Positions 19,461 through 63,346 of a stretch of DNA of 64,000 nucleotides are shown here, piece by piece. Numbering within the stretch: position 1 is the first letter of the stretch; the number at the start of each line of letters is the position of its first letter. This DNA comes from Agaricus subrufescens (taxonomy: Eukaryota; Basidiomycota; Agaricomycetes; Agaricales; Agaricaceae), in the NCBI GenBank assembly GCA_029945375.1, contig CM057067.1, forward strand, positions 868,001 through 932,000, read 5' to 3'. Below the pieces are notes generated by a model. The model saw only the letters and a list, made by a program, of their open reading frames with translations. It had not been told where the DNA came from and ran no database searches. A program made the position numbers and the translations under genes.

Positions 19461-20039
19461 TCATCAATTCACTACCCCTTCCACTTTATTGTCTCCAATC
19501 TCAAAAATTAGTCCCACTTTGGTATTCGACCCCACTAGCGTTATCTTTGTACCTATGACCGCATGACCTCGGCTCAGCCCCTTCTTCCACATGCCTCACA
19601 TCTCTGCCGAAGGTCTCCGGCCTCACCCCCGGATTGAATGACATGGGGATTTTTTTGGCCTTTGCCCCTTCTATCAGTTCTTTTCTTATTGCTACGTTTT
19701 TGTTAATATACTTGTTATATATAGTATACGGCAGATTAAATCCCGGTTTAAAAAAAAAAAAACCGTCAAACGTAGTCATGACGACGGTATGACCTCCAGG
19801 TGAATCTCTTTCTTTTGCGTGAGGCTCTTGGACTATCTCATCGACACGAAAAATCCCTCGGTTACACTCTACGCCATTCTTTGTCCTTATCAGTTGTATG
19901 CTATTCTACACCATCATCATTCTTTCTTGACCGGATCATCATCCGAGTCACCAATAATATTACCGTTCAATTCCTCCTTCACCTCACCTTCCACCCGACG
20001 TCAAATACTGTTGCCATATCGATGATTTACGGATGATTT

Positions 20040-21865: not shown

Positions 21866-24376
21866 CTATTCCTCTTCTTCTTCATCTTCATTCTCAACAA
21901 GTTTATCGTCTCCAATATCATCATCTTCCTGTCCGTCATCGTCAATATCAACATCCACATCGTCATCAACAATCCCCAACCCAAATTCATCTCCACCATC
22001 ACCCCCGGCTTCTTCCACCTCCACTTCATCGTCTACAATATCAAAAACAGTCCTGACAACATGCTCTTTCCTCCTCCCAGTATGTTTCAAGAAACCTAGA
22101 TAATCCAGTTCATGTAATGAACGAATAAATCGTGCTTGAATTTCTTGTTGATACGATTCATCGTCTATTATCGGTTCTTCTTTACGTTCTTCCTCGTCTT
22201 CGGAGGAGGCGGAGTCGATTTGGTGCTGTTCTTTTTCTTTACCTTTACCTTTCTTCGTCGGAGAGCTTTTCGACTTGGCTTTCCCTTTTCTTGACCCTTT
22301 CCTTTTAGGCGTTTTGCCTTTTGTTTTCTTCTTCTGTCGCGCTTCGGTCTCGGCTTTTCGTTTGACCTCTTCTTCACTTCTTTGAGTCTCTAAAACGATT
22401 TTGAAACTTTGATACCAGTCGTAGATGTTTATCAATTTTCCGGCTCCGTTCATGTATCGATTGAATAGGATTGATGTGTCAGGGAGTTCGTGAATTGCTG
22501 TTGGTGTTGTGTCCTGGTCTTGGTTATTAGTGTTGTCGAAGGTGTGCTTGGGTGAAGAGGATGCGAGTTGAACGTGAGTAGATTCGAGTTGCGCTTGGAT
22601 TTCGGATACGGTGGGTGATAGTGTACCGTCGATGTGCTCTGTGGTATCTTCGTCCTCGTCGGTCTGAGAGTATCTAGTGGGTATTGGAATAGGTAGAGTG
22701 AAATCGTGAGGGTGGAGGAGACCGTTGATTATTGATGCTCGGATGGAAGGGTTTAGAAGCTGTATCGTGGAAAAATGTTATTTGGATTGTCAGATAGAGA
22801 GGGGAGGGAGACAGACTTCGGTTGGGAATGGCGTTGAACCTGTGTACCATATATCCCATAGAGGTGAACGATCGAGTGGTTGTAATAGGTTCCTAGAAAT
22901 ATTTCTATCAGGATAAAGTATCAACGGAGAAAAGAAGGATGCCCTACGTCAATTGTTGCACCAACCAATCTGCAAATTCACCCGTATTCAACTCTTCATC
23001 ACCCTCCATTTCCACTTTCTGAACAATGTCACCAATAAAACTCATCGCATCTCCCTGACTTTTTTGGATCTCTCGTGGAAGTGAAAGATAGATATCGTTT
23101 ACTGAAATTACCAATTCTTGGAATGTTTCTTGTCGAAGTTTGCTGACGTACATCGCTATGATATTGATCTCTCTGCTAATCTGGCCACGCAGAGCGTTGA
23201 TCATGGGTTTTGTCAGTCCTTGGACTTCCCAAAGTCGTATAGGTTTATATCCCTTTTTTACGAGAAAGGTGTATACTTCGATGAGTAATGTGAACCCCAA
23301 ACGAAAATTTTGATAATTTTGTGAAAAGGTTGAATGATGTTGGGTGAGGAGCGAGATTAAGGTTTTTTTTGATGAGAGGGAGGTAGAGAAGGGGAGATTT
23401 AATCGGGACGATAAGGATGAGAAAATTGGATTGTACGTCGCAGATTTGGTCGAAAGTGTTGTGGGGCTGTTGAGTATACTGAGAGGTTCGACGAGAAAAT
23501 GTTTCAGATAGGCAAGTTGAAGTGTTGTCAGAAGTGTGTCAATAGATGAATGGTGTCGTAAGAAGATGTCGATCAAGGATTCCAGTATTGTCGGTCCTAA
23601 GACTAAACCCGGTGCGAAAGAGGGATCGAAGAATGTTTTGAGTAGGAGATGTTCGATGAGGCGATTTGAATTGAGCTGGAGGGACGAGAATGGTTGGACA
23701 CGAAGTCGGCGTAGGGTGCTTCGCGAGTAAGTGTTGTGGATGAAGGAAGGTGTCGGTGGGGAACTGAGGAAGAGGAGAAAGACAAATGAGAGGGTGGGGA
23801 TTTTTGTACTGCAGATGTGTAATATATCTTGCATTAGAGCAACGTCGATTTGTTCAAAGTCGTGCAGAATAACGAGGAGGGGATCATCGGGAGTGAAAGA
23901 GTCTTCGAGTAGGTTAATATCGTAGGCGGCCAAGCGGCTCTTGGTAGGTTTATCACCAAGGAAGCCAGATATAAGGTTTCTCATGCCGACAGTGAGGCTG
24001 GGTATATCGGAAGGGTGGAGGGGTGAGGTGGCCACATTGTCGGGTAAGCTGTCAAGGACAGTGCCGATGAAGAGCGGTGACGCATTGTGGACGGCGATGG
24101 TCGGAAGCTCAAGGTACGGCAGGCCAGGAAGAACATTATCATAGGCAGTGGTAATGCCCCGGATGACTGAGGCAACGGCAGGAGCGTAGAGGCTGTCTAT
24201 TTCTGACCTGAGGCGAGCAGAACACTTGTCCCACGCAGCTCTGTACGCGTCCACGCAGGTATTTTCCTCGTCTTCGTCCTGAGGAGCATAAGGGATATAA
24301 AAGGCTGTCTGTGGATAATTGAGCTGCGAGACAGAGCACGCAAAAGACTTCACTGCACCTGGGAGGGATCATTCAT
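21866..24376 (-). CDS. ORC3: Origin recognition complex subunit 3
   Basis: Exons are 24376-24359, 24308-22948, 22892-22817 and 22759-21866, with introns of 50, 55 and 57 nt and all phases matching; the product is 782 aa. It starts MNDPSQ + TAFYIPYAPQDEDEE, the usual ORC3 opening. ORC3_N-like sequence follows, with FEQIDVALMQDILHICS in the region equivalent to an ATPase fold. A conserved IWYTGSTPFPTELLNPSIRA block comes next, and QARFIRSLHELDYLGFLKHT forms the C-terminal winged-helix part. A lysine-rich linker precedes it, and the end is strongly acidic. ORC3 is a core subunit of the nuclear complex that marks replication origins and helps load MCM2-7. It shares a 90 bp promoter with MCM4, and its 3' end has been amplified into a tandem array. 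Confidence 0.88.
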
Positions 24377-32989: not shown

Positions 32990-33450
32990 AAGGGCTTTGG
33001 TACTTGCATTATCACGCCTAGTCCTGGTAGCTACAGATTTCTGTTGCTCTCAACTTTCCGCCAGTGGGTCGCCTTTCTGCTCTCCGTTCTTTCTGCTTTC
33101 TCACCCTACATCAAATCAAGCTAGATGCCTTCACAAGGTAGGCAATATGAATCTAATACCTGATGCTCGGTCGCGATTACGGTGATACAGACCAGAATTC
33201 CAACATCCTTAGCATGCACGTGTACTCAGCCGAAGTTTCACTGCCATGCCTTTTGTCAGTTTGGGTGGCGTCGTAAAGTCATTCTTGGTAGCCGAGGAAT
33301 TGGCAGGAAGGTGTTGGAAGTATAATGAATGCAGCGGGTGCTGGTGAAGTTGTAGAAATCCTGGAAGGAATCTGTGAGGTCAGGCTATTTGACCCTATAC
33401 GTCTGAATATCCATTGCTTGAGTCCCGCCGGCAGTCCCTTGATTCTGCTC
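32990..33450 (+). pseudogene. MCM4 5'-part fragment, first copy
   Basis: The order matches MCM4 from exon 2 to the end of exon 3. CTCTCAACTTTCCGCC and following match the exon 2/intron 2 text. GGTCGCGATTACGGTGATAC matches the ARRDRGDV region. GTCGTAAAGTCATTC matches the MKSF region. GCGGGTGCTGGTGAAGTTGT to GTGAGGTCAGGC matches the [14 protein letters not shown] region. Intron-derived sequence is retained, so this arose by DNA duplication. Many frame breaks. Confidence 0.7.
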
Positions 33451-33828
33451 TTCATTGTTCTCCCATCCGTCGGCCATTACTCAACCTGGGCAGCTTCGTG
33501 TCCACAAAAGATCTCGCTATTTCGATTAGGCTGATCTTAATTGTTTTGATTTCCCACTAGAAGCATGCAGACGTACAATCGAATTCAGTGAGGCACTTCT
33601 TGTGGTGAGTCAGTTCTTGTACTTTGTTCGCGAGTATAACTGATACATGCCATAAAACAAGGACCGGATGAACCGTGGATATTGGGAAAGTATACTAAAA
33701 TTAGATGGGCCTTAGTAGGCATCATGCCCGTGGATTTAATGTCTTATCATGGAGCAGAAGAGTCCTCCACTTCTCCGCTTCTTTCTCCCTTGTCTACTTC
33801 TTGTCTAGAGCACTATAACTCGGGATTA

Positions 33829-35520
33829 ATGGAGATTCCAAGCTCATCTCAACCAGGGAGTGAGGAGGCATTGACGACTGTTTCGTATGCCGTTATTGCG
33901 AACGTGAGTTTTTTAGATAATATATTATCAAATTCTGAAGATGCCACTCCCTACCCTAGTGGATGAAAGGTCAGTATCTTCTTGCAATTACAGGAGGATG
34001 CTAAAACATTGAACTGACGGTTTTGATGTAGCAGCAGCAGCAGCTGTTGCCGTAAGACACTATACACATCCTCATAGTCTAAGGTCACACGTATAACAGG
34101 TCTATGAGTGGTTGATCACTTCCGACATGGAGGTCCGGTTGATGTGGTGTAACAATACAAGTTGGAAACCAAAAATTTCGACGAAACTGTTGTATTTTGT
34201 GAATCGATATGGTGTGGTTGTGGATCTGATTTTGACTATGCTCCGTGAGTTGAGAAAAACATTTTTCCTAGTTCAGTGAGAGATAGAACTAATAATTCGG
34301 CTTGAAGACTCTTCTCCCACGAATCTGAAGGTCGAGTTTTGTAGCGTTATGATTTATACAGTTGGGGGTGCGTTCTCACCGTACATTTGAAAATCTCAAA
34401 AAGCAAACACACTTCTGAATGATAGCCACCACTATACTGGGTTCAGTTCTCTCTGAATGTAGGTTCTTCCTTCACAAATGGAACTGCTTCTCATCATCTT
34501 CTCTATTTGACCCAGACATACTCATATTACGCGTTTGCGTTGCATGGAAGATGAACAAGATCGTTATCGTCTTTCTCGCAACAAGTTGTATTGGCATGAT
34601 TGCTTATGCCCTGACGTATTATTATTTGGGATTGCGTTCCGTGAAAAGTGTGTTAATTTTCCCTGGGCCTGCATTTTACACTCATATTTTTTGTTGCCCC
34701 TTTCAGTCTATACACTTCCACCGCTTGGAGGGTGCTTTGTCGATACTCACGGAGGGTCAGTATGGACAACGTATATGATAATTCTTCTTTATGATACAGG
34801 TCTATCATTACTTATTTATTTTTGGATCTCACTCCTCACGCTGACGTTCAATTGTTGTTAGCGATGGTCACCTTGATGGGATATCCGACAATAAAGGAGT
34901 GTAAGTTTCTGACATCAAAATGTAGACTCATGACTCATACAGGTTTGCCTTTTTCACAGATAGATCTACTTATGGCAAAACAGAACTAATGAGACGTGTT
35001 TATGATGAAGGTAAAAGGCTTTCTTTTCATCAACGTATACTATTGGCATATGATACTGACTAATTCTATTTAAGGAGTCGTCTTCTATGTGTTCCTGGTC
35101 TGTGAGTGGTACGCCTTTCTGAAGCTACATGAGATGACTTTGGTTCACCCTAGTGATTGAGACTGCGTCCTTGGCTTTACAATTGGTGTGATATATCTCA
35201 TTACAACTACTTCTAGTCCTTTCCAGCTGACTGATCTCACGAAATTGATTTCTTTGCTTTTTTTGTACGACAGTCGAATATCATCGATGCCTTCCCAATG
35301 TGAGTCTCCCCGATAACTCGTTTCCCCACCAATTTATCCTATCTGACTCTTATCATTTCGTAGTCCTTCTCGCATTTTACGATCAATATTAGCTTCCCGA
35401 ACTATGCTACACATGCGTGATTATGCTTCTCGAGAAGCTGCCATAGGGAGCACTACCAAGAGTATGAGCAATATCAGATTCAGGTCAGAGAATGAGTGGG
35501 AGAGCAAAGTAGAGGCATAG
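33829..35520 (+). CDS. DUF6533-type multi-pass membrane protein, paralogue B
   Basis: Same 14-exon plan, about 300 aa. Exon 1 is 33829-33903 (MEIPSSSQPGSEEALTT), with micro-exons 33960-33969 (TGGATGAAAG) and 34032-34051. The signature reads VYEWLITSDMEVRLMW and FVNRYGVVVDLILTMLR. Downstream pieces are LRVCVAWKMNKIVIVFLATS, TLPPLGGCFVDTHGGS, AMVTLMGYPTIKE, LMRRVYDEG and VVFYVFLV. The terminal exon ends ENEWESKVEA at 35520. Every exon junction I checked keeps phase, so the gene looks intact. It is closest to paralogue C, with which it shares intron sequence, indicating a recent duplication. Function unknown; a membrane location is inferred from the hydrophobic segments. Confidence 0.8.
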
Positions 35521-37640: not shown

Positions 37641-40600
37641 TTTTTTTTTTTTATAAATCAAATGATTTATATACCGGCGCCCGATCGCAGTCCGGTCCTA
37701 CTACAAACATGCAATAGAATTATTTAAGGAGAAAGAGAGAAATCCCTAAACCCAAGACGTCATGCCGCCTTCCAGCTCAAGCTATGCATCCTCCATGGCA
37801 GGGCTCCAGCAGGTCGCAAGGAAAATGAGGTCGGTATACCTTCCCCAGATCGAGACAGAGACACGCCCATCAGGACTTAAACACCAGACCAGGCCTCCTT
37901 CCAGGCGAGGTCTCGTCCCTTCGCCCACCCTCTAAGACCACTAAGGGAATATCATCCCGGAGTCCCGGGGTTTCACCCCCCATAAGTGTCAGTCGTTCTA
38001 TCCACCAGAAGCCCGGTGGGGAGTACCCGGCTTAACCTGGCAGCATCGACGAGACACCGCCCCCAGACCCCAGTCACCCGTCGAGACCCCAGAGACAGCA
38101 GAACCCGGAACTACAACACTCACCCTTTAAGAGGGGCCCCAACCCAGTGTGCCCCGAAAAGCCACTCTCTTACTCAGGTGAAAACCACGCATGAATCTCT
38201 TCCGGCGGCTCCTCGAACGAATAAATCCAAGGATTATCCTCAAGGTAGACAAGGACCTCCGTGAGGGTCATAAACCGCTCTTGACGTCTGGCCTGCGTGA
38301 GCGCCTCGCACTCGTTAAGCAAATGATCACGGGTCTGGTTTGCACCGGACCGGCAATAGTGGCAGTAGGCGGTGATAGAATTGCCCACATTAAAGCGAAT
38401 CCTGTACTCGGCAGTAGGCCCGTGGTTCAGGATGAGTCTCGTGGCCCTCGCACACATGCGGGGCTCGTTGATCAAGATGTTTGACAGCCAGCTCCCACCA
38501 CCAACGTAGGAGGGGGCCATCAGTCCTTTTCTGGGATTCACAGCACTCTTGTGAAACTCCATAAATTGATTTCCGCGGAAATCTGGAGAGCGGAACAGGC
38601 GGTGCCACTCATCCATGCACGCCTTCTGAACCCGGCGGCGTTCAGAGGCTAAGGTAGTCCAAGGCGTACCATGCTTGCCGAAGCGGTAGTAAGCCTGGTG
38701 ATTCTTGAGGTCCTTGGCAGAGACCCCGGGAAGACCCCATCCCAGGTGATTCCTGGCATGGACAAAAGTGACCCTGGCCTCCGCAAAGGTGGAAAGCCAA
38801 GGCCGAAGTCGACGGGCAGCGAACAAAGATAGCTGCTGACCCGAGTGTGGTTTCGGATCCATCAGGACTCTCGCCATGGTTATGGCGCCTGTGAATATGA
38901 CAATGTTGCGCACCCACGGGACCTTAAGGCCCAAGTCGATGGCACGTGTGAGACTATCCAATTCAGCATCCTGCTGAGTGGAGTGCCCCAGTGGGAAGGA
39001 GAAGTCTTGTTTAAAGCCCTCGCCGCCTTCTCCCCAGTCCCATTGAGCCGAAGCGGCCGAAGCCGCCTCAAGCTCGCCCTTGGGGTCCACCGAAGCGGCA
39101 GTCCCCAAAATGACAGTTTGTGGGACTTCCTCATAGGAAGTCCTAAGACGAGTGAGGCGTAAGATGTCAGCATCATCTTTAATCGCCCCAGATGGCGGAG
39201 AGTCGACGAACGAGATCCGATCGCCAAAATCATCCAAAATGCGGTATCCAGGTCGGGCCTCCACGCAGTCAGCCTCGAATGGTTCCTGGACACTCGGAAC
39301 AGCACAACCCAAGTCTGAAATAAAGGACTTGACCTTCTCCCTAACCTTCAACTGAAGGTGGGCGTTATGGAACCGGTGGGCCAGCTCCTCCTGACCAGAC
39401 CCAGTAAAGCGTCTGATCGGGTGGTTGGGAGAGAGAGTTTGCACCCGGAATATAGCCCTGGTGCGCAACTTCTTCAAATGCAAATGAATCGGAATGAGAC
39501 CTGCTATGGCCTCAACTCCGCCCGTGGGGGAGGTACGAAACGCTCCCGTGATCCAAAGAGCAGCTCTACGCTGCATCTTGCGAAAAGAGTCCAAAAGGCC
39601 CTTAATCCGGCCCTTTGGACTGTACCACAAAAGGAAACCATATGTTGCAACAGGCAACACACACGTCCTGTACAGAAGCCTCTTGTCCGTGGGACGAAGT
39701 CCCCGAACAGAGTTGCCAAGCATGCCCAAAGCCTTCACAGAAGTAAAGGCCTTGGTCGTATAATGTCTCACATGCTCCTTAAAAGTGAGCTCACGATCAA
39801 AAAAGAAGCCAAGGTACCGCCAGGTAGTCTTGGCTCGAAGTGGGTTGTCCTTCCCATAAGGGCCCACCGGGAGGGCCACCTCAGGGAGCGTAGGATTACA
39901 CTTGCGCGTAAAGTGAAACAATTCGGTCTTCGAATGCTCCATGGAGAGACCAAACGAACCGAGAGTACGAAACATAACATCATACGCCTTAGCAAGGCGC
40001 GGGACATTGTCGGAAAGCTCACGGGACTGACAGACTAGCATGCCGTCATCCACATAAGAAAGCAGATTGCACTCAAGGCGATGTGAATACGCAAAGAATA
40101 CCTGCATAATCTTCGCAAAGTACAAGGCCGAGAGGACAGGAGACAAAGCAGAGCCTTGCCCCACCCCCACATCAGCCTTGAAAAAAGGTGACTTGTTTCC
40201 GCCCCAAAGATATGAGGTCTTCCGGTCAACAAGATAAGACGAGAAGAAGGCCCCCACGTTGGGTGGGAATCCTTGCTTCGCCAATATCTGAATCAGAGCT
40301 TCGTGATTCAGTGAGGGAAAAAACTGTGCCACGTCAAACGCAATGACACTAGTTTGTAAACCCTTAGCCCACCCCACTCTTATGAGGTTGGTAAGGTAAT
40401 GGCCCGCGTCATCAGTGGATCTCTGCCGGATACCACCGAACTGGCCGTCATCAAAGATTCCATATTTGACTGCATCAAACTGGAGTCTAGTCGAGAGCAT
40501 CTTCTCTATAAGTTTCCCGACGGTGTTCAGGAGCGCTATCGGTCTGAACAATCGTGGGGTGTCGTAAGATGCCTTGTTCGGCTTTGGAATAATAACCGAC

Positions 40601-41587
40601 GAGGACATCTTAAAATAATCTGGCCAATACCCAACTCTAAGGCAGGCGTTGGCCAGGGGAACCAGAACCCCCAGACACTGAGGGACAATGGCTTTGAGGT
40701 GCTGCCACTTAACATGGTCAGGCCCCGGGGCAGAACGGGATGAGCACGCCTTTAGCGCGTCCAACATCTCGTGGTCAGAAAAGTCCTTCCACTCCCTCTC
40801 ATCGAGGCTAGGGGATGACTCAATGATATCGAAGTCCACAGCATTGGTAGCCGCGCTGTTGTACACTTCGTGTAGTGCCTCCCACAACTGTGGTAATTCG
40901 ACACAAGCTTCTCCATTATGCCTAATGGATGTAAAAGAGGGAAGCTTACGTGGGCCCGTCCACTCCATCAAGTCCCACGTTCGCTTGTTAGTCTGAGAGA
41001 TCTCCTCGATCTTATGATTGAAAAAAGCCCGCTTGGCAGCCCTAGTGGCTCGCTGGAAAGCACGCCAGTTATCCTTGGACTTGTCCAACGAATACTGACG
41101 CTTGGTGTCACTACACTCCTGGTTCCACCAAGACTTGGAGTGCGTGGTGATAACCCTGTCCACAGCGTGGGACTTCCACGCGTTGGCAAAGGCATCAGAC
41201 ACAAGTCTCGCGACCCTGTCTATATCCTCAGGGGTCCTCATATGGCCTAACCCATCCATAGGGATGCTGTTAAGGGCCTGGACTGCCGATGTGATGAAAC
41301 GAGTTTCCTCATCCGACTCATCGGGTATAGTTTGGATCTCGATGCGAACATCAAAGTCCATAAGCGGGACGCTCACTGATATCGGATAATGATCCGACGG
41401 ACCAGTGAGCTCGTGAACAATGACGGGGGGAACCCGTCGAAGATCTTGGCTGCCAAAGACCAGGTCAATGACAGATCCGTTAAGCCGCCTATCGTGCGGC
41501 CGGTGAGTAATTCCATGGTTACTCGGCTGACACCAAGTAAGGCCCAAGGATGACATGCAGTCCACTAAGGACTCGGCGACATTCGAA
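37641..41587 (-). mobile_element. 5'-truncated Tad-like non-LTR retrotransposon
   Basis: A 3,947 bp insertion on the minus strand, ending in poly(A) (plus-strand T12 at 37641-37652) and bounded by a perfect 15 bp target duplication. The 3' UTR is 37653-38169. The 5' end is lost inside the endonuclease domain, so the copy is dead on arrival, as is usual for LINEs. It sits inside the spacer that precedes paralogue C; removing it and one duplication restores the sequence seen at 32770-32870. Confidence 0.9.
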
Positions 41588-41604
41588 ACATCCAGTGTCA
41601 TCAA
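38170..41604 (-). CDS. LINE reverse transcriptase ORF (5' truncated)
   Basis: A 1,144-residue open frame. Residues 1-5 come from the target duplication, which supplies the ATG. Residues ~43-80 are the tail of an AP-like endonuclease (SVIDLVFGS, GPSDHYPISV). Reverse transcriptase spans ~335-600, with FRPIALLN, FDVAQFFPSLNH, GQGSALSPVLS and the catalytic YVDD (517-520). An RNase H-like region follows (~815-960); there the usual Asp in the IFTDS-type motif is Gly (IFTG). A zinc-knuckle-like CHYC...H...C lies near 1087-1105. The uninterrupted frame implies a fairly recent insertion. It is unlikely to move by itself. Confidence 0.9.
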   Translation of the reverse strand: MMTLDVSNVAESLVDCMSSLGLTWCQPSNHGITHRPHDRRLNGSVIDLVFGSQDLRRVPPVIVHELTGPSDHYPISVSVPLMDFDVRIEIQTIPDESDEETRFITSAVQALNSIPMDGLGHMRTPEDIDRVARLVSDAFANAWKSHAVDRVITTHSKSWWNQECSDTKRQYSLDKSKDNWRAFQRATRAAKRAFFNHKIEEISQTNKRTWDLMEWTGPRKLPSFTSIRHNGEACVELPQLWEALHEVYNSAATNAVDFDIIESSPSLDEREWKDFSDHEMLDALKACSSRSAPGPDHVKWQHLKAIVPQCLGVLVPLANACLRVGYWPDYFKMSSSVIIPKPNKASYDTPRLFRPIALLNTVGKLIEKMLSTRLQFDAVKYGIFDDGQFGGIRQRSTDDAGHYLTNLIRVGWAKGLQTSVIAFDVAQFFPSLNHEALIQILAKQGFPPNVGAFFSSYLVDRKTSYLWGGNKSPFFKADVGVGQGSALSPVLSALYFAKIMQVFFAYSHRLECNLLSYVDDGMLVCQSRELSDNVPRLAKAYDVMFRTLGSFGLSMEHSKTELFHFTRKCNPTLPEVALPVGPYGKDNPLRAKTTWRYLGFFFDRELTFKEHVRHYTTKAFTSVKALGMLGNSVRGLRPTDKRLLYRTCVLPVATYGFLLWYSPKGRIKGLLDSFRKMQRRAALWITGAFRTSPTGGVEAIAGLIPIHLHLKKLRTRAIFRVQTLSPNHPIRRFTGSGQEELAHRFHNAHLQLKVREKVKSFISDLGCAVPSVQEPFEADCVEARPGYRILDDFGDRISFVDSPPSGAIKDDADILRLTRLRTSYEEVPQTVILGTAASVDPKGELEAASAASAQWDWGEGGEGFKQDFSFPLGHSTQQDAELDSLTRAIDLGLKVPWVRNIVIFTGAITMARVLMDPKPHSGQQLSLFAARRLRPWLSTFAEARVTFVHARNHLGWGLPGVSAKDLKNHQAYYRFGKHGTPWTTLASERRRVQKACMDEWHRLFRSPDFRGNQFMEFHKSAVNPRKGLMAPSYVGGGSWLSNILINEPRMCARATRLILNHGPTAEYRIRFNVGNSITAYCHYCRSGANQTRDHLLNECEALTQARRQERFMTLTEVLVYLEDNPWIYSFEEPPEEIHAWFSPE
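41588..41602. repeat. LINE target site duplication, right
   Basis: Second copy of ACATCCAGTGTCATC, at the 5' junction of the LINE. Confidence 0.9.
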
Positions 41605-52630: not shown

Positions 52631-53506
52631 GGCAGAACGAGTAACGTATACATCATTAACCCAGAGCAACCAACAATCTCATTAAGATGTCTATCATAGG
52701 TCATCCCCGCTACATTACATACGAGGAGCCAGCGTGCGGACAACAGTTTCATGTAAAAGGGCCGGGGTAAACGCGGGGTGAACGTGGGATGGCTGCTTAT
52801 GTGCTGGACAGAAACAAGGAACGATTGAGAATCTGTGCTAACGGGTACCCGTTTTTCTGGTAGCTCCACTTGAGGAGAGGCGATAATCCAGCAGTGTAGA
52901 GAGAAGTGATTGCAGTTCAACATGATGCGACCCTACCTGGTTGATAACTGAGTGACGATGCCGGTTCGGCCTTTGTGCAAAAGTGAGATCTGAGAGCACT
53001 ACAATGTCATACATAGGACAGGAATGCCGCAGGGGCAAAGCAGTTTTGTTTCCTGTTCCTGCTCCACTGCCTGGAGGATTGTTTCAATCTACCACTACCA
53101 TCTACCATCCTCGACTTGCATTCACTGACAACATTCAGCCTTGTATTTGGCACAGCCTGTACGTGAGGTTGATTGACTTTCAGGATGAAGATAGTCTCCG
53201 AACACTTACTCGTTACCAGAACTCCCACCATCTGAGAATATTCCATCCATGATCGGATACTGTGAGGAGGATATCAGATAATGTGGTGAGTAAGGAAAGA
53301 GCTGTGCATAAGTTTTGAGAGTGCCAGGAGGTTGGAGCGGTCAACACAATCGGGTCGCCTCGCGTATTCGGTTCGCTTCACCTACATGATTTGCTATTTG
53401 TCTCTATCATAGGATTTAGAAGAGTGGTAATTCGGAAAATAAGAGAAATTCGGAGAACGCTGAGTATGTGGGACCGATAGGAGATAAGATTGTAGTACGT
53501 AACTTT

Positions 53507-53509
53507 GGG
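53507..53509. repeat. CACTA target site duplication, left (GGG)
   Basis: GGG directly before the CACTGTGAG terminus; the partner is 63010-63012. Three-base duplications are the rule for CACTA elements. Confidence 0.85.
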
Positions 53510-53535
53510 CACTGTGAGCCCCGGGGCTAGGGAAA
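53510..53535 (+). repeat. CACTA left terminal inverted repeat
   Basis: Pairs with 62984-63009 over about 25 bp with three mismatches. Its inner part (GGGCTAGG, 53524-53531) also pairs with CCTAGCCC at 53538-53545, so the terminus can fold on itself. Confidence 0.9.
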
Positions 53536-54462
53536 ATCCTAGCCCTAGATCGGGGTTAGCGTAATCTCCTAAATTTGTTCGGGCCATACATAATACACAT
53601 TTTTTAGAAACGTCTTAAGCACGTTTTTTCCTGACAAAAAATGTCAGGAAAAGGCGTACATATGTTAAGGCTTAAATATACATGTATGTCCGGGTAGTTT
53701 TACCGGACTTAAACTTGAGAAAATCATACTTTTTTTATTTTAATAAACTAAAGAGACAAACGACGAAACGCGACCATCGAGTGGTCGCGTTTCGTCCGGG
53801 TGGTCGCTAGACGACCCTGACAGTCGACGCGAACGTCGACTGCCAGAATCTGAAGAAAAAAAACGGACAAAAAAAATCCGGCTCTCCCTCAAGAGCCGGA
53901 TGATAAGAAGACTCAAATGCGACCACAAAGTGGTCGCGTTTCGTTGGAGTCGTTCGCAAACGACTTCAATGGTCGACGCGAACGTCGACCATCGACGTGA
54001 GCGCGGGTGCTCAGCGTGACCGACGTCGCGCGAGATCCCGCGCTCGTTTGGCCCTCCCATCACCTCCCATCACCTCCCCCCCCTCTCCCAACCGGTGTCC
54101 CCTTCCCAAGATGTCGCGCTTTTCGTATTATTTCGCACCCAGGGGCATTCAAGAACATCATAGAGCCCCTAATCTTGTCCCTGGGTGGTTTGAGAGGAGG
54201 GATGCTCTTGAAGCTTTGAAGGGAGCATTGAGGAGCCACAGGGGGCTCCTCATGCGGATTCTGCGAGGGAGGAGAGTTGAATGGATGCTGATGTGAGTAT
54301 TTTATGTTTTTTAAACATGATTGAGCACTTACCTTTGATTAGGGGACGAAACCACAAGTCCAGGTGTGCAGGGGGAGAACCTGCACACTGGACTATAAGG
54401 GGGTTTTTCGGGGGACATGCAGAGGTTACTCTGCATGTCTACGACGGGAACATCGGTTCCCG
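53524..54462. other. Array of about 17 stem-loops in the CACTA left subterminal region
   Basis: Stems (bp; loop nt): 53524-53545 (8;6), 53621-53657 (16 with two T-G; 5), 53688-53708 (6-8), 53762-53796 (15 perfect;5), 53802-53816 (5;5), 53817-53846 (9 perfect, 12 with one mismatch; CGAA), 53876-53901 (10;6), 53915-53941 (12 with one T-G;3), 53943-53970 (7 plus T-G extension; CGCA), 53969-53992 (10; CGAA), 53999-54045 (9), 54136-54187 (9), 54230-54251 (8;6), 54304-54318 (6;3), 54358-54393 (14, one bulge;7), 54414-54439 (11 perfect; GTTA) and 54445-54462 (7;4). Most stems have unrelated sequences, so this is not one repeated motif. Role unknown: transposase or TnpA-like binding, a structured RNA, or cruciform DNA. 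Confidence 0.8.
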
Positions 54463-54898
54463 ATTGTTTTTGAACGGGGGGAGATGGTCCCGCCGCGGTC
54501 GCAGTCGCTCTGAGTTCCGGGCGCGGGCATGGTGAGTTCGAGTATGCAAAAGGTCTACCAATGCTGTAAGCAAATCTTTTTTTCTTGTTGTTGTGTTTTC
54601 TTGCTTTGAGTGTCGTATTTGTCTTGAATTTGATCTGTAAATTTTTTTGAAGTATATTGTACAATATTAAGGCTCGCGCGCACTCACATTTGATATAATT
54701 CTTGAGATTGCTGTCCTTTGATCTCGCCTCGTCTTCGTACCTTCACTATTAGCATATTAAAGCCTGGTTTTCTGAATGATCATAACGGTGAAGTGTGGAT
54801 CCATTATTATCAAATGAAATAAATAAAAAAAAGTCAGTCAAAAAAAACTATCTGAACTGTTAGTGTGCACAATCGAGAGGAGGGCACGGGGCGCATAC

Positions 54899-57800
54899 CT
54901 AATCGTCATCTCCTCTCGAAATACCTGTCCTATCAACAATACTCCACCGGCCTCTATCGTGGACTCGTCCGACTACACATTGCACCGTGTTCAAATCTAC
55001 TACTTGTACGGTTCCAGTTTTTTGATATGTATAGAAGCCGTTCTTTTGAGTGATTTTGACAGTTTGCACCACGGCATATATGACGGTCGTTGATGAATTG
55101 AGACCTAATGGGGGTATACTAGGTAAGTCAATCACGAGCACCCGCTTCAGTTGTCCAAAGAACGACCGCTTCACGTAGACCGGTTGGCGGTTTCGTTGGT
55201 GTGTGCACTTGTCAACCATCTGAACATACTATTTGGTTGGTTCAATATGGGAATCTCACGAAAGACTACAAAGCACTCACTTTAATGAAGGAAGCGTCGC
55301 GCGAGTCCTCACCTCTTCGTACCAAGTCACAACCTACAATCGTATCTCCCCCAAATAGAATATGAATCCTGGCGTAGTGAAGAACGGGCCCATCGAGGCT
55401 GATGAGCGTTTTGACAGTTAGTTTTGGTTTTTCAAATCGTGTTGCCAAAGCCGCAAAAATTTTGTCTCGGAGATACATAGGCACAGATTCGCGTCGTCGT
55501 GGTGGAGAGAGCTTGTAGGACGAATCTGATACGACGTGGTTTGGAGTCTACACATTAAGGAACATGACAACGTACATGAGTTGGATATCAGATCGTTCAC
55601 CGATAGTTCTGCTTTAGGGGCTGTGAAGCTTAGTTCCGAATAAAGGTTATACTTCAACCGCACTTGATCAAGCTGAGCCATTGCATTGACGAAGGCGGCG
55701 ATGGCTGAATAAGGGTGTCGTCGACTTCTGATGGAGGGTAGGAGGGTATTGCAGTGCCGTTCCATCGGGAAAGCCCAGTAAGTCCAGACTGGACCCGCAA
55801 CCCGAATACCCCATGCAATATGAAGAAGAGCATGAACTGTTAGGGGGCAGGCTGAGAGACGACGGGGCTGATATAAATAGTAAAACCTGAAATGAGTCGA
55901 GGTGACGTGAAATTAGAAATACACGAGATTAGGTATGTATACGGAAACTCACTTTTCATAGTCCTCTACCCAAGTGCGAAAGCCAGTGTCTATTATATCC
56001 AACATCTCGTCATCAATCTCAAGCTCCAAACAAATTTTGAGCAGCTCGACGAGCTTCAGGAAATGTTGATAGTATTTTTTTTGCCGAAACCTTTCATTCA
56101 ACAGAATAGGCGCAACGAAAAGAGTCCAGTTCGAATACATTTCTGCCGTCATCTGAGATTGTTGCAAAGCGATATTGGGAAGGGGCTTCCCAAAAGACGA
56201 TGGTATGGATGCTGTAGCGGCAGCTGTGCCAACTCCAATCTGTCTCCAGGACTCGGGCGGGATAACATAGCCTTGATTTTCGTGGTCAAGGTTTTTGAAG
56301 GAGGCGGTCCAGAATAAGATGAGGTTAGGAATGAGGTTTTCCCAGATGAGGTGCATAAAATCGAACGGAAAAGATTCGGGAAAGGATACAGAGGACAGCG
56401 AGCTGAGGATGGGTACGCCTTTGATGCCATATTGCTTGGCGAGCCGGTTGGAGGTGGCTTGATTATGAGCACCTTGTACCTCCTTTGCCTGAGCCATCAA
56501 TTCAGCATGCGACCGAAGAGGAAGTTGTGACGGGTCTAGCGAACAATCGGAGTCCGGAACTCCATTTCGTCGTAAAGGAACGTAATACGTGTTGGAAGTA
56601 TTGCCACGGACGCCCATTATTTTGCACACTCGACAAGGGCTAATTCCATTGGCCCCCTTCATGCGCATGAGGAGCGCCACGGCAGGGATATCGCCAAAAA
56701 TCAGGAGGAGGTAAGCATGGAGTAAGAAAAGCCTTTGGCTAACGGCGTCGAAAGTCCGGACTCCAACCTCAAGTTGAATGAGTTCTTGGACAAGGGGCCA
56801 AAGAAAGGAGTCCATATCCCAGGGCTTTTTAGGCCCCGGGACGGTTCCGACGTTGATACAGTATTTCTTTTGAAAACGTATCTTGGGTGGGAGATTGTAA
56901 TTGAAGAGGATAATCGGCCAACATGTCTTGTCTCGTCGTTTGAATGGCGCAAAGCCGTCAGTGGAAAGACCAAGTGCAATATCACGAGGGTCCGAGAAAA
57001 AGAAGAATGGTTGATCGTCGTTACTGGATGGGACAATTTTGTTCAATAATGACCGGTAGTGAGAGCCATCGAAAACGTCTGTCGTTTGTCCATCCTGATG
57101 CTCAAAGTTGGCCCGATAGCGCATTTTTTCAGCAAATTGGCGATTGGCGGACATCGCTCGTAAGCGGGGGATCAAGGGAAGATAATCAAAGGTTTTGCGT
57201 GCTTTATTTTGATCACTGAACCGTGGCTCCTTGCAATTGGGACATTCAGTGAGGCCTTCATAGGGTCCTGTGAAACAGACACAGCTGTTCACGCAACAGC
57301 TATATCGTTTTGGTCGAAAATCTGACAGGAGTTCAACACGGTTCTTTGTCTTCTTGAGCGTGTGATGGTAAGATTCCGGAAAGACAAACTGGAACTTGGT
57401 GAAGGTACTTTCAGTAAGATGTTCTTCGACCTTCAAAGCATACTGGCGGAGCAGGCTCAGGTCAGACTCATCCAAAGAGTTATCTGGAGCGATAATCAGT
57501 ATGATAAACGATCATCAGAGAGAGACGCGTACCAGTCGTCATCAACCTGCACGCTAAATCATCACTGATACGATCCCAAAAAGCGATTGAGGCAATATCC
57601 GTTCTGGAAAGATTGGCGTCGGGGTTATCTGCTTCACGATCCTCCTCATAATCATCATCATCGTCATCATCATCCCTGGGTCCTTCATCATCCCCGCTCA
57701 GGTTTTGATCCTCGTTTTCGCTCCTACGGTCACTATCGTCATTATCGTTAAAAAGGGGTTCGCCGTTGTCGTCCTCGTTCCGTGGCTGTTCCAAATCCTC

Positions 57801-58247
57801 CTCTTCCTCGTCCTCATCATCAGTGCCATCTCCGTCCTCTTGAACCCCTGGTACAACTTGAGTGGGGGGATTAGTCCAACGTTGTTCAATAACCAGCCTG
57901 GTTTTTTCTGCGACCTGTAACGACCGAGACGATGGGTTACTAGAATGTGATTGTGGTGGAGAATCTATGTTTTCAATTTGAAGCGGGCCGGGACTAGGGG
58001 CATCGTCCCGCCTATCCTCCCAATCTTCACTGCGGTCTTCAGGGGAGTTTGAGCGCTGATGCTTCTTCCCCGCAACGAGGCTATCATTTTGAAGGGGCGG
58101 ACAGTCATCCGGGGACTCCGCGGTCGTAGCCACAGCCCTTTTTGCCGCTAAGTGCGCTCGCCTCGTGGGATAGGAAACGTACTTGTTGCAGCCGCAAGTA
58201 CATATGCAGGCTGACTTGTTTTGTACTCCGAGTCGGCTGGAATCCAT
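54899..58247 (-). CDS. CACTA transposase (Tnp2 family)
   Basis: Five exons: 58247-57533, 57483-55953, 55886-55576, 55525-55281 and 55219-54899, with introns of 49, 66, 50 and 61 nt and all phases matching; 1,040 aa with no interruption. N-terminal Cys cluster (CICTCGC, residues 14-20), then a long acidic low-complexity region. A second Cys cluster (CCVNSCVC...CPNC, ~301-322) precedes the Tnp2 core: ALGLSTDGFAPFKRR (likely catalytic Asp ~414), GPKKPWDMDSFLWPL, FGDIPAVALLMRMKG and SPCRVCKI. The C-terminal part has RLSACPLTVHALLHIAWGIR, GPVWTYWAFPMERHC and VVDLNTVQCVVGRV. It would cut and rejoin the element at its CACTG ends. The start chosen is MDSSRLGVQ; an in-frame Met lies 10 codons upstream. 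Confidence 0.92.
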
Positions 58248-58924
58248 AGGAAGGGCTAACAGGAGGTAGACAGTCAAGGGAACAAAATGATGACAGACGG
58301 TCCCAATGCATAGGTAGCGTGTTCACACACGTGCACAATGGCAGTGCGTGGATTATTGAGAAGTAGGGTGGTTGGGGGAGACCACGACGTGGCATTAGGA
58401 GCAGGTAAACCATCGAAAGGCGAGAAAATCGGTATGCTGAACATTCAGAAGAGATAAATCTCAGCCTAGGTGCTCACATGCGATTCTAACGATAAAACTC
58501 ACCAAAGTGAAGTACACATTTGAGGGCCAAATCGAAGGGTGAAAATAGCCAGCGACCAACAAGTGGAGACAATCAGGATCAAACGCCACTACATGTACGG
58601 AGGGTGAGCGCATCCTACAAGGTAAAATTTGAGATTGAGACAACGATGTTCAATCTCAACAGAAGGCACAGGTGCTAGGGTTGTGAAAGATAGAGAGAAT
58701 ATAGTTGAGGGGGATTCAAAGCAGAATCCAGGTAGAGATAGATCGCCGCCAGAGGCAAGTACCACGAGTCGCAGAGGGGAAGGACTGCATCAAGTCAGCG
58801 TTGTGAGGTGATCGTGGACAAACAGAGTCAAATAAGACTCCCCCAAATGCATTAAGTTCGAAACGACTATACATCAGATACGCGTAGAACAAACAAGGCA
58901 AAACAACCGCCTTGTCTTCGTGCC

Positions 58925-59574
58925 TCACTCAACATTGTCCCCAGCAAACTTTATAACCACCTTCACGGAACAAGCATCGGTTGGTATATCTACTGCGAGA
59001 TGTTTGAGCGTCTGGTTGACATGTTAGATTATACAGAAATCTATGGTCAGTGCACAACTCACTCTCTGTTTCTTGTGAGGTATGTCACCACCGGCACTCG
59101 TTTCCTTTACCCCATTTTCAATGGGATCCGTACCTATGTCCCTTTTCCTTTTAGGTACAGCGATCTCTGGCTGGACCTCCTTGGCTTTGCCTTTGCGCTC
59201 TTTACGTCTCCTGATACGCGCCATCATCTCCCGACTATAGATTCCTCTCGAACCGGAAGGTTTATCTTTTTCAACCGTGACTGAAGGGGAGCCTGGAGGT
59301 GAACTGCTAATAACAATTACTGGAAACATGATTAGTCTAATCATATTGCAGAATGAATGAATTTTGACCTACTTTCTCTTTTTTTTGCATCTTTCGCTTC
59401 TCGGAGTGCGCGTTCTTTCCTCCAGGCTGCGCGCTCTTCCTTCCAGGCTTCCTCGTCCAGCTGGCTCTGGAACGGCGGAGTAGCACCAGAATAATCAAAG
59501 TAATGAATTGACGAAGAATCTGGCTCAGTGAAACAATCAAAACCACTTCCAGAAGCGGGAAATTGAGAGCTCAT
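58925..59574 (-). CDS. Accessory protein of the CACTA element (unknown)
   Basis: Three exons, 59574-59373, 59319-59063 and 59011-58925, are joined by introns of 53 nt (donor GTAGGT, GACTAAT branch site) and 50 nt (donor GTGAGT) with matching phase; 181 aa. The N-terminal part is aromatic/Ser-rich and followed by a charged, probably helical stretch (EEAWKEERAAWRKERALREA). A basic middle (MMARIRRRKERKGKAKE, PKRKRD) could bind nucleic acid or be a nuclear signal. The C-terminus reads LKHLAVDIPTDACSVKVV. No family recognised. The frame upstream of the chosen Met stays open to a TAA at 59680-59682, beyond which it is open again to about 59970, so the 5' end is uncertain. Confidence 0.6.
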
Positions 59575-59682
59575 AGTCGATGCTCGTTGTAGCGAAGGAT
59601 AGGAGATGATGGCTTTTCGATCATAGTCTTCAACCTTTATATGTGGTCCCTCGGCGATACTCGTAAGGCTTTCTCGCAATTA

Positions 59683-59970
59683 CTTCATCTCTTTGCCCAT
59701 CAATGACCATTGCCACTGGGTACGGAATTCCAGGCATCCCCGCCTATCCATCTGGAGTCGTTTCCGATGGACAAGACCCGTATCGGTACCAGCACTTAGG
59801 CCTTGCGTATTGATGGTTGTCATGAACAACTCTTCGCTTCTCTTGTATCGGCGGACCTTTGCAAACATCTGTCTCGTCATCTCCCGGCCTTTGTTCGGTT
59901 CATTCCTCACTTTTGGATCCGGAACTTGGATTATCGGTCGTCGGAGTTCAGGTTCGTCGCTGCAAATGCT
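59683..59970 (-). other. Open frame upstream of the accessory gene
   Basis: The same frame as exon 1 of the accessory gene continues upstream of the TAA at 59680-59682 with protein-like sequence: EPELRRPIIQVPDPKVRNEP, MFAKVRRYKRSEELFMTTIN, FRTQWQWSLMGKEMK. An acceptor-like TTTGCAG precedes it. I found no intron that removes the stop and keeps frame. It may be a separate gene end, an exon lost to mutation, or an alternative 5' part. Confidence 0.4.
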
Positions 59971-60189
59971 ACTACATTAATTCTTTTATACTAGTCAGAG
60001 AAATCGTTCAACAGGCCGCACTCCTACTTCTTCCAATTTGTACATAGTAGGTCGGTCCTCTTTTCTCGAACCATCCAAAGTAGGACATTCACTATCTCTA
60101 GTGTAATCACAAACCTATGCGGTTTCCAAACATTTGTTTTGTCCTTGCCCGATCTCTATTCGGACCGGACATGATCAATTATTCCTCAT

Positions 60190-60312
60190 GAAGTCGTCGG
60201 AGCTTAGGTCGTCGGTCATCGGTCGTCGGTTACTGGTCGTCGGTCATCGGTCGTTGGTTACTGGTCGTCGGTCGTCGGTCGTCGGTCGTCGGATATTGGT
60301 CGTCGGTCATTG
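60190..60312. repeat. GTCGGT minisatellite
   Basis: Tandem GGTCGTCGGTCATC / GGTCGTCGGTTACT units and pure GTCGGTC runs, about a dozen GGTCGTCGG-type words. Non-coding and inside the CACTA element. Confidence 0.75.
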
Positions 60313-60767
60313 GGTTACTGTCTTTTGTTATCCAATATCATAGGTTCGCAATTGTTACAAGGTTCCGCTACAAGCGCCGTTGCATTTTCTATACGAGTTG
60401 GATTGATGTTTAAAGCGCCTTGCCCTTCCCTCCTCCCCCAAGTTCGTTTTATAGGTCAGTCTCCCTTCCAGAGCCATTCAAAATGGAGCATCAACGTTGA
60501 ATTTATTTATTAATGTTTTAATCTTCAGATTGCGTGTTGAAAAGCTGTATAATATTCCGATCACGATTGAATCTGGTGTTTCGGCATGGCGGTGAACGGC
60601 TTCGGTTGGATGGTGCGTAATGTTTCAACCGCCCTCCAGGAGAATGAGCTGATTACCAGATTCGTTCCTAATTCTTTCTTGGCTACCGATTCAGATCGTC
60701 AACCGCTTCACATATTTAAAGGCTCATGTAGTCGATTAATGTGAGTACTTAGAGCAACTCTCTGCCA
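60313..60767. other. Upstream region of the CACTA plus-strand gene
   Basis: No gene seen. Short frames only, ending at the ATG at 60768. It likely holds the promoter and 5' UTR of the following gene. Confidence 0.35.
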
Positions 60768-62733
60768 ATGGCGACTCAACGAAAAACTAGAAGCGCTACA
60801 AACGCCTCAACGCTATCATCCAATCCCAGTGGTCCGACTGTGCCGCCAAAGGCTGCAAAAGCCAAAGGCTCAAAGAGGTACCTGGTTCTTAATCAATGTA
60901 TACTAATCATCCGCCTCTGATGCCGCTCCAGGAAAGAAGCACAAAAATCTTGCCCTCCGAATGTCGACGAGAATGGTGTCTCATCCCTAGCCCCAACGAA
61001 GAGGAGTTCGAGGAAAAGGTTGGCTTTCATATCTCGCCATAAACGTCTTCTGACCCCCTTTGAGGAAAACCACACGTAGCGACGAGTCTATTCATGTAGA
61101 GGATGAGCCCTCGACGCCAATGGAAGTTGATACAGCTGCTGAGTTAATGGAGCCTACCGCTGAGGAAGAGCTATCTATCGAAGAGGTATATTCAGTTACA
61201 TATTTTCTTATTTTATTTTAATGACTACCGACAAATAGGCTTCAAAGACCACGAATTCCACCTTGACGAAGAAGTCTGCCTCGACGAGGAAGTCTGTATC
61301 GACGAAGAAGTCCGCCTCGACGAAGAAGTCTGCCTTGACGAAGTCTGCCTCGATGAAGAAGAAGAATTCCACCTCAAAGAAGTCCGCCCCGACAAAGTCA
61401 GCTGCGCCAATGGAGCAGGAGCTTACTGCCCCAGCTAAGGAAGCTACCGTCTCGGCGAAAAAGTCCAGTGCCTCAACGAAGGGGCCTTCTACTTTGACGA
61501 TAGCTCACACTTCAACAAACAAGCCGACTGTTTCGACGAATGGTTCTGCCTCTTCAAGGATAATGAAAGCTAGTAGTTTGCCGAAGAAGGCAATCCGACC
61601 TGCAGGTAATGATCGTTGTTCTGAATTTACTAACCATTGCTGACCAGTTCAGCAGTTTCTTCCTCCATGTTGCTAGCCACGAGCTCCGCTAGCTCCAGCC
61701 AGTCTGTTTCTGCCTCAAGCATTGACACGTCAGCGCCGAAGGAAGATGATTCCGGTGAAGACAAGTTTGAGGCCCTTCGTAAGACGGTCCATCTCCTCTC
61801 AGGTAAATTCAATTGGGTTGACCCTTTACTTTGCTCACTCGTCTTTAGCAAGATTGAATGGACAGGAGAAGGCTGACACTGCCCAACCGAAAGAGCAGTC
61901 AGAAGATCTTATTCCAAAGCCTGTAGGTTCTCGAATTTCAAAGGCGCAGCTACGAGCTGCTATGGGACTTAGTGGACGTGCAAACAACAAAATTTACAAT
62001 TCATGTCGAGTAAGTCTTGTGATATCTTGACCCTCTTAAGTATTGCTTCTGATAAACATGATTTACTAGACTGCTGTTCGAGATGCTATAATACAGTTAC
62101 AGTTTCCAGTCAACATTGACTGGCGCAAACAAGACCGCCAGCTTGCTTTTCAAGTGGTGGAGCTGGTAAGTTTCATATATGTCATATATTCCATTTACTT
62201 ATTTTCGGAAGGCGAAGTTGGGCCAGCCACTGCTGAAGAAATTCAAACAGAACTGGGCTGCAGAACAGATCCTCATATCAATCTGCCAGAACAAACGTAA
62301 TTACAAGAAGAAACAAGTCCGTGGATACAGCCGGAAAAAGGTTGAGCATAACGATAATCACGACAGCAATGAGGGTAGGGAGAATGAACCTGGAGATGAG
62401 GAGGGGTCTGAGAATGAGAATGACCAGGGAGATGAGGGGCCCGATAACGAGAATGACCCAGGAGATGAGAAGGGGTCCGAGAATGAGAGTGACCCAGGAG
62501 ATGAGGAGGGGTCCGAGAATGAGAGTGACCCGGGAGATGAGGAGGGGTCTGACAGTGACTTGGGAGATGAGGAGGGTTCTGAGAGTGGGGCTCAATCGAG
62601 TGGCGAGATGGACGATGAAGATGGTGTGGATGAAGAGGCTCGAAAGGAAACACGTAAGGGGCTGAAACGAAGGTATCAAGATGAGGATAATGGCAAAGAT
62701 GTAGGGAAGGGGAAAAAACCAAAGAAATGCTAG
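60768..62733 (+). CDS. CACTA-borne Lys/Ser-rich protein with acidic repeat tail
   Basis: Eight exons join in frame: 60768-60877, 60932-61018, 61080-61185, 61239-61605, 61653-61802, 61849-62009, 62070-62165 and 62212-62733; 532 aa. The N-terminus is basic. Residues ~101-160 are a tandem of STKKSA/LTKKSA-type repeats. A compact middle reads SRISKAQLRAAMGLSGR, VRDAIIQLQFPVNIDWRKQD and AKLGQPLLKKFKQNWAAEQIL, the most likely folded and perhaps DNA-binding part. After a KKKQVRGYSRKKVE basic patch come EGSENESDPGDE repeats. By analogy with the second protein of plant CACTA elements (TnpA type) it may bind the subterminal region, but I see no homology that proves it. Confidence 0.7.
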
Positions 62734-62983
62734 CTTTTTGTTGGGGCCTTTACCGAAATTTCATAGGATTATTCTTTTATTATTCTCCTAACTTAAACCC
62801 GGTTTAATTTTGACTATTTCACATATTAAGTAAGGAATTCCCCAATTATATAAGTCAGGGAAGTGAAAGTTAGTCTTGGAAATATCTCGCTTACAAGATA
62901 GGGTAAGCACAGATCAAAACTCTGGATTAGTCAAGTCCTAGTCAAGTCTATACCCTACATTCACACGTACATAAGCTCGGTGA
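62734..62983. other. CACTA right subterminal region
   Basis: AT-rich, non-coding, with a short direct repeat TAGTCAAGTC (62928 and 62939 area). It lacks the stem-loop density of the left end, so the two ends of the element are asymmetric. Confidence 0.5.
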
Positions 62984-63009
62984 TCTCCCTAACCCCGGGT
63001 CTCACAGTG
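62984..63009 (-). repeat. CACTA right terminal inverted repeat
   Basis: Reads outward as CACTGTGAGACCCGGGGTTA and ends at CAGTG (63009), followed by the GGG duplication at 63010-63012. Confidence 0.9.
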
Positions 63010-63346
63010 GGGTATGATGCAAACACAAGCACACATACACACGATCTCCCTTTCGAGAGCGGACTGTCACTCAAGAGTATAATTAAAGTATGCAACAATG
63101 TGGAGACCGGGCTGCGCGCGTCTACTGGGAAAATTTCGATGATGAATCTCAACAGAATCTCAATAGATTTTAACTTCATGGATATAAACCGCTCACCACG
63201 ATACATGGACAACCATCATTCTCTGGTCTCTCTGTTCTTTCTTCTTTCCGTCTCTCTTTGTCACTCGCTATCTCCATCGGTCTCTTCCTCAGTCTTTCAG
63301 ACTCCAACTGTCTCTCTTTCTTTCTGTCTTTCTGTCGCTTGTCTAG

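Follow-up and report, generated by a model that had tools for sequence, protein, structure and literature searches.

A one-sided array of short inverted repeats with mostly unrelated arms at the left end of a CACTA element in Agaricus subrufescens

The window analysed here, a 64-kb stretch of the Agaricus subrufescens genome (contig CM057067.1; the genome searched comprises 44.65 Mb in 44 contigs), contains at positions 53510-63009 one complete element of 9,500 bp that plainly belongs to the CACTA/EnSpm (Transposase_21) superfamily. Its boundaries were fixed by comparing eight copies with differing flanks, all eight of which are enclosed by a 3-bp target site duplication. The copies begin at CACTGTGAGCCCCGGGGC, and the terminal inverted repeats (TIRs), CACTGTGAG[C/A]CCCGGGG[C/T]TAGGG, are of the CAC...GTG type (CACTGTGAGCCCCGGGGC ... 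CCCCGGGTCTCACAGTG); the left TIR, placed by copy comparison, lies at 53510-53532 on the plus strand, and the right end with its TIR at 62740-63009. CAC..GTG ends and a 3-bp duplication are reported for some fungal EnSpm families (PMC12730594). The transposase core (Transposase_21/tnp2; PF02992, E 2e-26, 93 bits against a cut-off of 28.6) is encoded at 55949-57511 on the minus strand, and the organisms named among the best 120 of its 1039 relatives are Agaricus bisporus, Amanita muscaria and Hypsizygus marmoreus; identity among these relatives reaches 67% along almost the entire length. A further ORF of the element, at 62170-62733 on the plus strand, codes for an acidic repeat protein with a KGKKPKKC end and without a Pfam match. 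TIRs, duplications and transposase together confirm the view, put forward in an earlier note on this DNA, that the hairpins described below lie at one end of a CACTA transposon; they sit past the 3' end of the minus-strand transposase gene. Four of the eight copies are full-length and identical in sequence, and the element looks recent. Among the shorter copies, three measure 6,633 bp and one measures 6,669 bp; all four are missing the segments corresponding to window positions ~56190-57929 and ~61364-62438, and with them most of the transposase core. The first 600 bp are identical in seven copies, the eighth differing once, at the position matching 53998. The hairpin array is present at the left end of all eight copies, including the four without most of the transposase core; this retention is weak evidence because the copies are almost identical.

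Elsewhere in the window, the segment 42000-43500 is repeated within the window as an 89% copy that lies some 8.8 kb upstream (33251-34706); there are weaker copies elsewhere on this contig and copies of 76-77% on contigs C1, C2 and C22, so that this part of the window belongs to a local repeat cluster. At 38170-41604 on the minus strand, an ORF of 1144 aa with an RVT_1 domain, and with Exo_endo_phos_2 just under the cut-off, is probably a LINE-type retrotransposon. The GC skew swings strongly within 20001-24000, from -0.42 (21-22 kb) to +0.35 (23-24 kb).

The array itself is dense. When hairpins with perfect arms and loops of 3-10 nt are counted without overlap, with 500 dinucleotide shuffles as control, the interval 53510-54462 contains 14 with arms of at least 6 bp (shuffle mean 1.6), 12 with at least 7 bp (mean 0.44; maximum of the 500 shuffles, 3), 10 with at least 8 bp (mean 0.14) and 5 with at least 10 bp (mean 0.006). 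The stem-loop array that the earlier note had reported is thus real, and its figure of about 17 repeats is a fair one, since the 14 perfect hairpins are joined by an interrupted long hairpin at 53999-54045 (GAGCGCGGG...CCCGCGCTC, with an inner stem, known from the folds) and by a hairpin of 5 bp at 53802-53816. The RNA fold of the same interval reaches -430.8 kcal/mol against -294.5 (sd 7.6) in 20 shuffles (z -17.9), far below shuffled controls of the kind that the note had proposed as a check, and the DNA fold, also against 20 shuffles, gives z -15.4. Moreover, the array is one-sided. The outer 953 bp hold 12 hairpins with arms of at least 7 bp at the left end and 1 at the right, where there is no hairpin excess and folding is no better than in shuffles (z +1.8); six equal-sized stretches inside or beside the element have only 0 or 1 such hairpin each; the fold of 54463-54909, just past the array, has z +1.0; and 12 of the 36 such hairpins in the whole window fall inside this 1 kb.

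From the terminal repeat, the array extends across a noncoding stretch into a small plus-strand gene. Hairpin H1 (53524-53545, arms of 8 bp) lies just inside the terminus, at element bp 15-36, and is followed by H2 (53626-53652, arms of 11 bp, loop AAAAA) and H3 (53688-53708, arms of 6 bp). Module 1 (53762-53846) consists of a hairpin with a 15-bp stem (53762-53796), the short hairpin at 53802-53816 and a last hairpin, TCGACG-CGAA-CGTCGA, at 53821-53842; module 2 (53915-53992) has hairpins at 53915-53941, 53948-53965 and 53969-53992; H6 (53876-53901, arms of 10 bp, loop CCCTCA) lies between the two. The modules, 78% identical over 76 columns, are as real as had been proposed, and the 15-bp stem as well as an 11-bp stem at 54414-54439 are found exactly where they had been placed. 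The interval given for the array was 53524-54462; its true start is the terminus region (the element starts at 53510), and that the DNA is coding from 54111 on had been overlooked.

The gene in question (54111-54535, plus strand; model made by eye) has two exons and a product of 124 aa that matched no Pfam family. Exon 1 spans 54111-54292, an intron of 50 nt (GTGAGT...TTAG) 54293-54342, and the stop codon lies at 54533-54535. Its exon-2 peptide is found at 11 places: the eight element copies (98-100%), a locus on C9 (71%), and C5:1059780 and C9:2455620 (48%); at the three loci outside the eight copies the matched stretches are free of stops. Four hairpins fall in the coding DNA, one in exon 1 (54229-54252, arms of 9 bp) and three in exon 2 (54364-54388, arms of 9 bp; 54414-54439, arms of 11 bp; 54445-54462, arms of 7 bp). 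None of 400 synonymous-codon shuffles was as stable as the gene in the sense (z -4.3) or in the antisense direction (z -5.7), and for exon 2 alone 2 of 400 were in sense (z -3.0) and 0 of 400 in antisense (z -4.0). Three control segments of the transposase gave sense z of -1.8, -2.5 and -0.8 and antisense z of +0.5, -1.1 and -0.5; sense scores therefore tend somewhat to negative values in this test, which leaves the antisense result as the cleaner of the two. The same test gave z -2.0 and -2.3 for the gene of the distant L038 element, and no signal for the small gene of the C9 relative, of which an early stop left only 45 nt for the test.

The relative that begins at C9:1375070 is 65-78% identical to the element, depending on the region, and 73% identical in the module. 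It is damaged, with two TGA codons in the transposase and, in the small gene, the early stop, which falls in exon 1. Its array is split by an insertion of about 9 kb (C9:1375468-1384757; L030/L031) whose direct repeats measure at least 132 bp and which looks like an LTR-type element; C1 has two copies of the repeat at a distance of 9.1 kb. The first 398 bp, before the insertion, nevertheless fold with z -12.8 (plus strand) and -12.4 (minus strand), a stability matched by none of 100 shuffles on either strand; a stretch of 500 bp that includes about 100 bp of the insertion gives z -9.8, and part of the small gene z -3.8. The C9 relative has a single module, which corresponds to module 2, where this element has two. 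When the two modules of this element and the one of C9 are aligned in three rows on the structure seen here, 92% of the 102 cells are paired, and both partners have changed in 8 of the 34 module pairs. Shuffles reached eight both-sided changes in 2 of 500 cases, a figure that is not a probability, since the three rows are related and the structure comes from this element; with the partners slid by 1-3 columns, 0 or 1 such changes remained. The count excludes three outer pairs overlapping with adjacent stems (two of stem 1, which pair in module 1 only, and one of stem 2, which pairs in all rows). The arms have thus changed while pairing was retained, as the earlier note had seen in the modules. 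Outside the modules, two pairs of H1 are compensated in C9 and one is broken, and at the site of H6 the C9 stem has 12 bp (TCCGGCTGCGCC) against 10 bp here (ATCCGGCTCT), with changed arms; C9 also has hairpins, such as GCTCGAGC-GTTGAA-GCTCGAGC, for which this element has no evident counterpart.

The hairpins of exon 2 can be compared in the same way. The hairpin at 54364 has the same arms in C9, with a changed loop; that at 54414 has a homologous hairpin in C9 and another, TGCAGTG-TTAA-CACTGCA, in L038, a distant element; that at 54445 is not retained in C9. For the first two, 2 of 40 arm sites differ from C9 against 38 of 117 other exon-2 sites (P 0.0003), and for all three, 5 of 54 against 35 of 103 (P 0.0005). 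At third codon positions the contrast between arms and the rest is suggestive at most (1 of 14 against 17 of 39 for two hairpins, P 0.02; 3 of 19 against 15 of 34 for three, P 0.07).

A different picture is given by the relative at C13:112812-113359 (L026), which is 77% identical, decayed at CpG sites and folds with z -6.2. Half of the CpG bases in the array of this element (53 of 106) appear as TpG or CpA there, which suggests that dead copies in this genome undergo methylation-linked or RIP-like decay. Of its stem pairs, 54 are as in this element and 6 have changed on both sides, while 13 are G-T, 8 are A-C, 2 are of other kinds and 1 has a gap; Watson-Crick pairing is thus lost in 23 of the 83 pairs that can be compared. 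Covariation in C13 was considered and rejected, because all six both-sided changes fall on the 22 stem pairs with a CpG on both sides, where independent decay predicts 5.5; the stem pattern of C13 is one of decay and not of maintenance. At non-CpG sites, 10 of 121 stem sites differ against 57 of 314 others (P 0.011). Only three lineages (this element, C13 and C9) enter these comparisons.

Beyond them, the sister elements L028 and L029 (C5:3250963 and C2:4025829) have in common with this element only the first 77 bp (94%), which include H1. In the same slot they carry, within 1.5 kb, 15 near-copies of the palindrome TAATCATGATTA (3 mismatches allowed), against a mean of 1.7 and a maximum of 7 in mononucleotide shuffles and a single match in the first 1.5 kb of this element. 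Their first 700 bp fold with z -5.6, so that structure is present there too. In the left arm of both, repeats of GCTACTTGAA build one perfect hairpin, with arms of 47 bp around a loop of 4 nt (L028:730-827 and L029:696-793, 0-based). No dense array was seen beside eight other Transposase_21 loci (62-71% identity; 83 matches in the genome), which have 1-5 hairpins per 4 kb; ten segments folded at six of them, with termini placed by eye from CACTG motifs, range from z -2.95 to +2.4, and the left ends of the remaining two (L034 and L036) may fall outside the stretch read. The array is thus not generally needed, and for the 8 loci sampled of the 83 matches we reject it as a general trait of the Transposase_21 elements of this genome. 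We likewise reject the view that the hairpins are dispersed mobile mini-elements, since, among the matches listed, array DNA matched only this family and its relatives.

The explanation that we favour, tentatively, is that the array is an asymmetric subterminal cis-region whose palindromes act at the DNA level as a loading platform and are kept by template switching and selection together. That the structure belongs to DNA is suggested by the two strands, which fold alike (noncoding part, z -12.0 plus and -11.6 minus; coding part, -5.9 plus and -7.3 minus). The first ~950 bp, in which some 15 short inverted repeats have mostly unrelated arms, would form the cis-region of one end, filling the slot that in other CACTA elements is held by short repeated motifs. 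A protein encoded by the element could load on the symmetric sites, either as paired inverted half-sites or as extruded hairpins, and this loading would capture the left end for transposition. Template switching between arms may keep the stems near perfect in an active element, and selection may retain those copies that remain palindromic. What we observe is the array, its one-sidedness, its persistence with paired changes in C9, the likeness of the two strands and the loop inversions described below; the platform function, the loading protein and the selection we infer. The low divergence of two exon-2 hairpins from C9, the codon shuffles, the palindromes that the sister elements have in the same slot and the one-sided systems of soybean (PMC2613891) and Hermes (PMC10368747) also speak for this reading. 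Against this reading, the right end has no array, whereas the word of soybean Tgmt* is reported at both ends (PMC2613891), none of the eight other Transposase_21 loci sampled has a dense array, and one of the three exon-2 hairpins is not retained in C9.

Template switching deserves particular attention. The loop at 53637-53641 reads AAAAA here and TTTTT in C13, and that at 53886-53891 reads CCCTCA here and TGAGAG in C13 (the inverted form being TGAGGG). Nine loops were compared with C13: two are inverted, six have the same orientation and one (53955-53958) is uninformative, and among 528 and 526 windows of 5 and 6 bases no others are inverted, save one-base shifts of the first loop. In inverted repeats of yeast genes and of rRNA, template switching is described as homogenising arms and inverting the spacer or loop (PMC8604942, PMC8794818), and stems can arise and be repaired in this manner (PMC8794818). 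The two inverted loops match this signature, and template switching therefore very likely acts on the stems of the array. Since it copies arm onto arm, selection on structure, which the earlier note had suggested, does not follow from compensatory change alone.

Template switching alone could explain both the perfect pairing and the paired changes, and an origin by mutation alone, on balance doubtful, competes strongly with the platform reading. The end of the element would then be a hot spot of template switching, for example in gap repair after excision; the hairpins would have no function, and compensatory changes and inverted loops would be mere footprints of switching. The inversions, in stems with arms of 11 and 10 bp, the near absence of mismatches from the stems, the continuation of the array into coding sequence and the reported capacity of template switching to create and fix stems (PMC8794818) all agree with such an origin. 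It leaves unexplained, however, why the array occurs at this end and in this lineage only, and not at the eight other loci, and why two of the three exon-2 hairpins stand in the same place in C9, one of them also in L038. Moreover, the stems of the dead C13 copy, with 23 of 83 pairs broken, have not been re-perfected, so that the mere presence of a copy in the genome does not suffice for this process. The restriction of the array to one end and one sampled lineage, together with the decay of C13, thus favours a role beyond mutation. It is also conceivable, if unlikely, that palindromy itself is recognised, in which case unrelated hairpins would be kept by selection and template switching, through the doubly constrained gene, and would be read as hairpins or cruciforms.

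We think it quite unlikely that the array consists of conventional subterminal sites, in which a TNPA-like protein would bind a core such as GGTCG or GTCGA and the inverted pairs would only resemble hairpins. The module stems do have GGTCG, GTCGA or AGTCG, the stem-loops of Tgmt* are reported to consist of a single repeated word (PMC2613891), and the sister element L028 has its 15 near-copies of TAATCATGATTA. With both modules included, 11 pairs of arms share a 5-mer, largely because of the GGTCG/GTCGA core of the module stems; when module copy 2 is left out, 4 pairs remain against 3.4 in 2,000 shuffles (P 0.43). Thus, with the duplicated module counted once, 5-mer sharing is at chance level and the claim of the earlier note that there is no common binding word holds. 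H1, H2, H3, H6 and the four hairpins of the gene have no GTCG-type core, and the right end is without an array.

A structured RNA, the least likely of these alternatives and in our view an improbable one, would be a plus-strand transcript (leader and small gene) or a noncoding RNA of the element end, folded into a chain of hairpins that regulates expression, serves as a substrate for Dicer or protects the element against silencing. The extreme folding energy (z -17.9) speaks for it, as does the extent of the array, which spans nearly all of the presumed plus-strand transcript and ends near the end of the gene, and miRNA-like structures are reported in maize genes and transposable elements (PMC10760457). 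This option is weakened, however, by the minus strand, which folds about as strongly as the plus strand in the noncoding (-11.6/-12.0) and coding parts (-7.3/-5.9), in C9 (-12.4/-12.8) and in the codon shuffles (-5.7/-4.3), and by the stems, in which G-T mismatches are almost absent. A structured RNA would be expected to tolerate G-U on one strand only; the stem mismatches have no strand bias (one G-T and one A-C in this element; two of each, plus a G-G, in C9), which points to DNA, although so few mismatches cannot decide the matter alone. Membership in a known Rfam family is rejected, as a search of 53300-63200 gave only two sub-threshold matches, the best with 22.5 bits against a gathering score of 36.

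If pairing is kept while the words change, a transposase system could find its DNA by symmetry or shape, whereas the subterminal regions of CACTA elements are usually viewed as arrays of a single binding word. The element would be, in addition, a natural test case for selection and template switching as sources of compensatory change, a general problem for claims of RNA or DNA structure that are based on covariation.

In the open-access literature searched, which is not all that is in print, no paper came up that describes such an array of hairpins for a CACTA element of fungi. Among known systems the Tgm elements of soybean are the closest. Tgmt*, Tgm1 and TgmR* share with this element CACTA TIRs, a 3-bp duplication, tnp2 and asymmetric subterminal stem-loops: Tgmt* is reported to have 12 stem-loops in its right border (732 bp) and 2 in its left (PMC2613891), TgmR* also has stem-loops (PMC4219821), and the 12 hairpins against 1 found here agree with many asymmetric stem-loops in a border. 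The 14 stem-loops of Tgmt*, however, have a common 7-bp word, TTGGCAG, at both ends (PMC2613891), whereas in this fungal element neither the 5-mer comparison nor the right end gives one repeated word at both ends, and the array enters a gene. The contrast that the earlier note drew with known CACTA repeats therefore stands as regards the shared word, and not as regards stem-loop ends, which soybean Tgmt* already provides (12 against 2; PMC2613891); the stem-loop border is known in kind, and new here are arms without a word shared beyond chance (the module counted once) and an array on one end only. The published cases of template switching concern host genes and rRNA stems, with the same arm homogenisation and loop inversion; here about 15 inverted repeats lie in 0.95 kb of a mobile element. 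In maize En-1 the subterminal word is present at both ends. It is a single word of 12 bp, and the CACTA region beside the TIR is thought to be the loading site of an element-encoded protein, with TNPA on the subterminal words (PMC2613891). The TNPA repeats of En/Spm are thus alike in position, beside the TIR, and in their presumed loading role, but they consist of a single word and not of hairpins of differing words. For Hermes, a hAT element, loading of the transposase via the left end is reported, with a quasi-palindrome formed from subterminal repeats at bp 11-27, a position comparable with that of H1 at bp 15-36; Hermes belongs to another superfamily and has short AAGT repeats at both ends, and the account available to us describes no hairpin array (PMC10368747). 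Dyad symmetry may then be the feature that the array has in common with the palindromes of the sister elements, the stem-loops of Tgmt* and the quasi-palindrome of Hermes.
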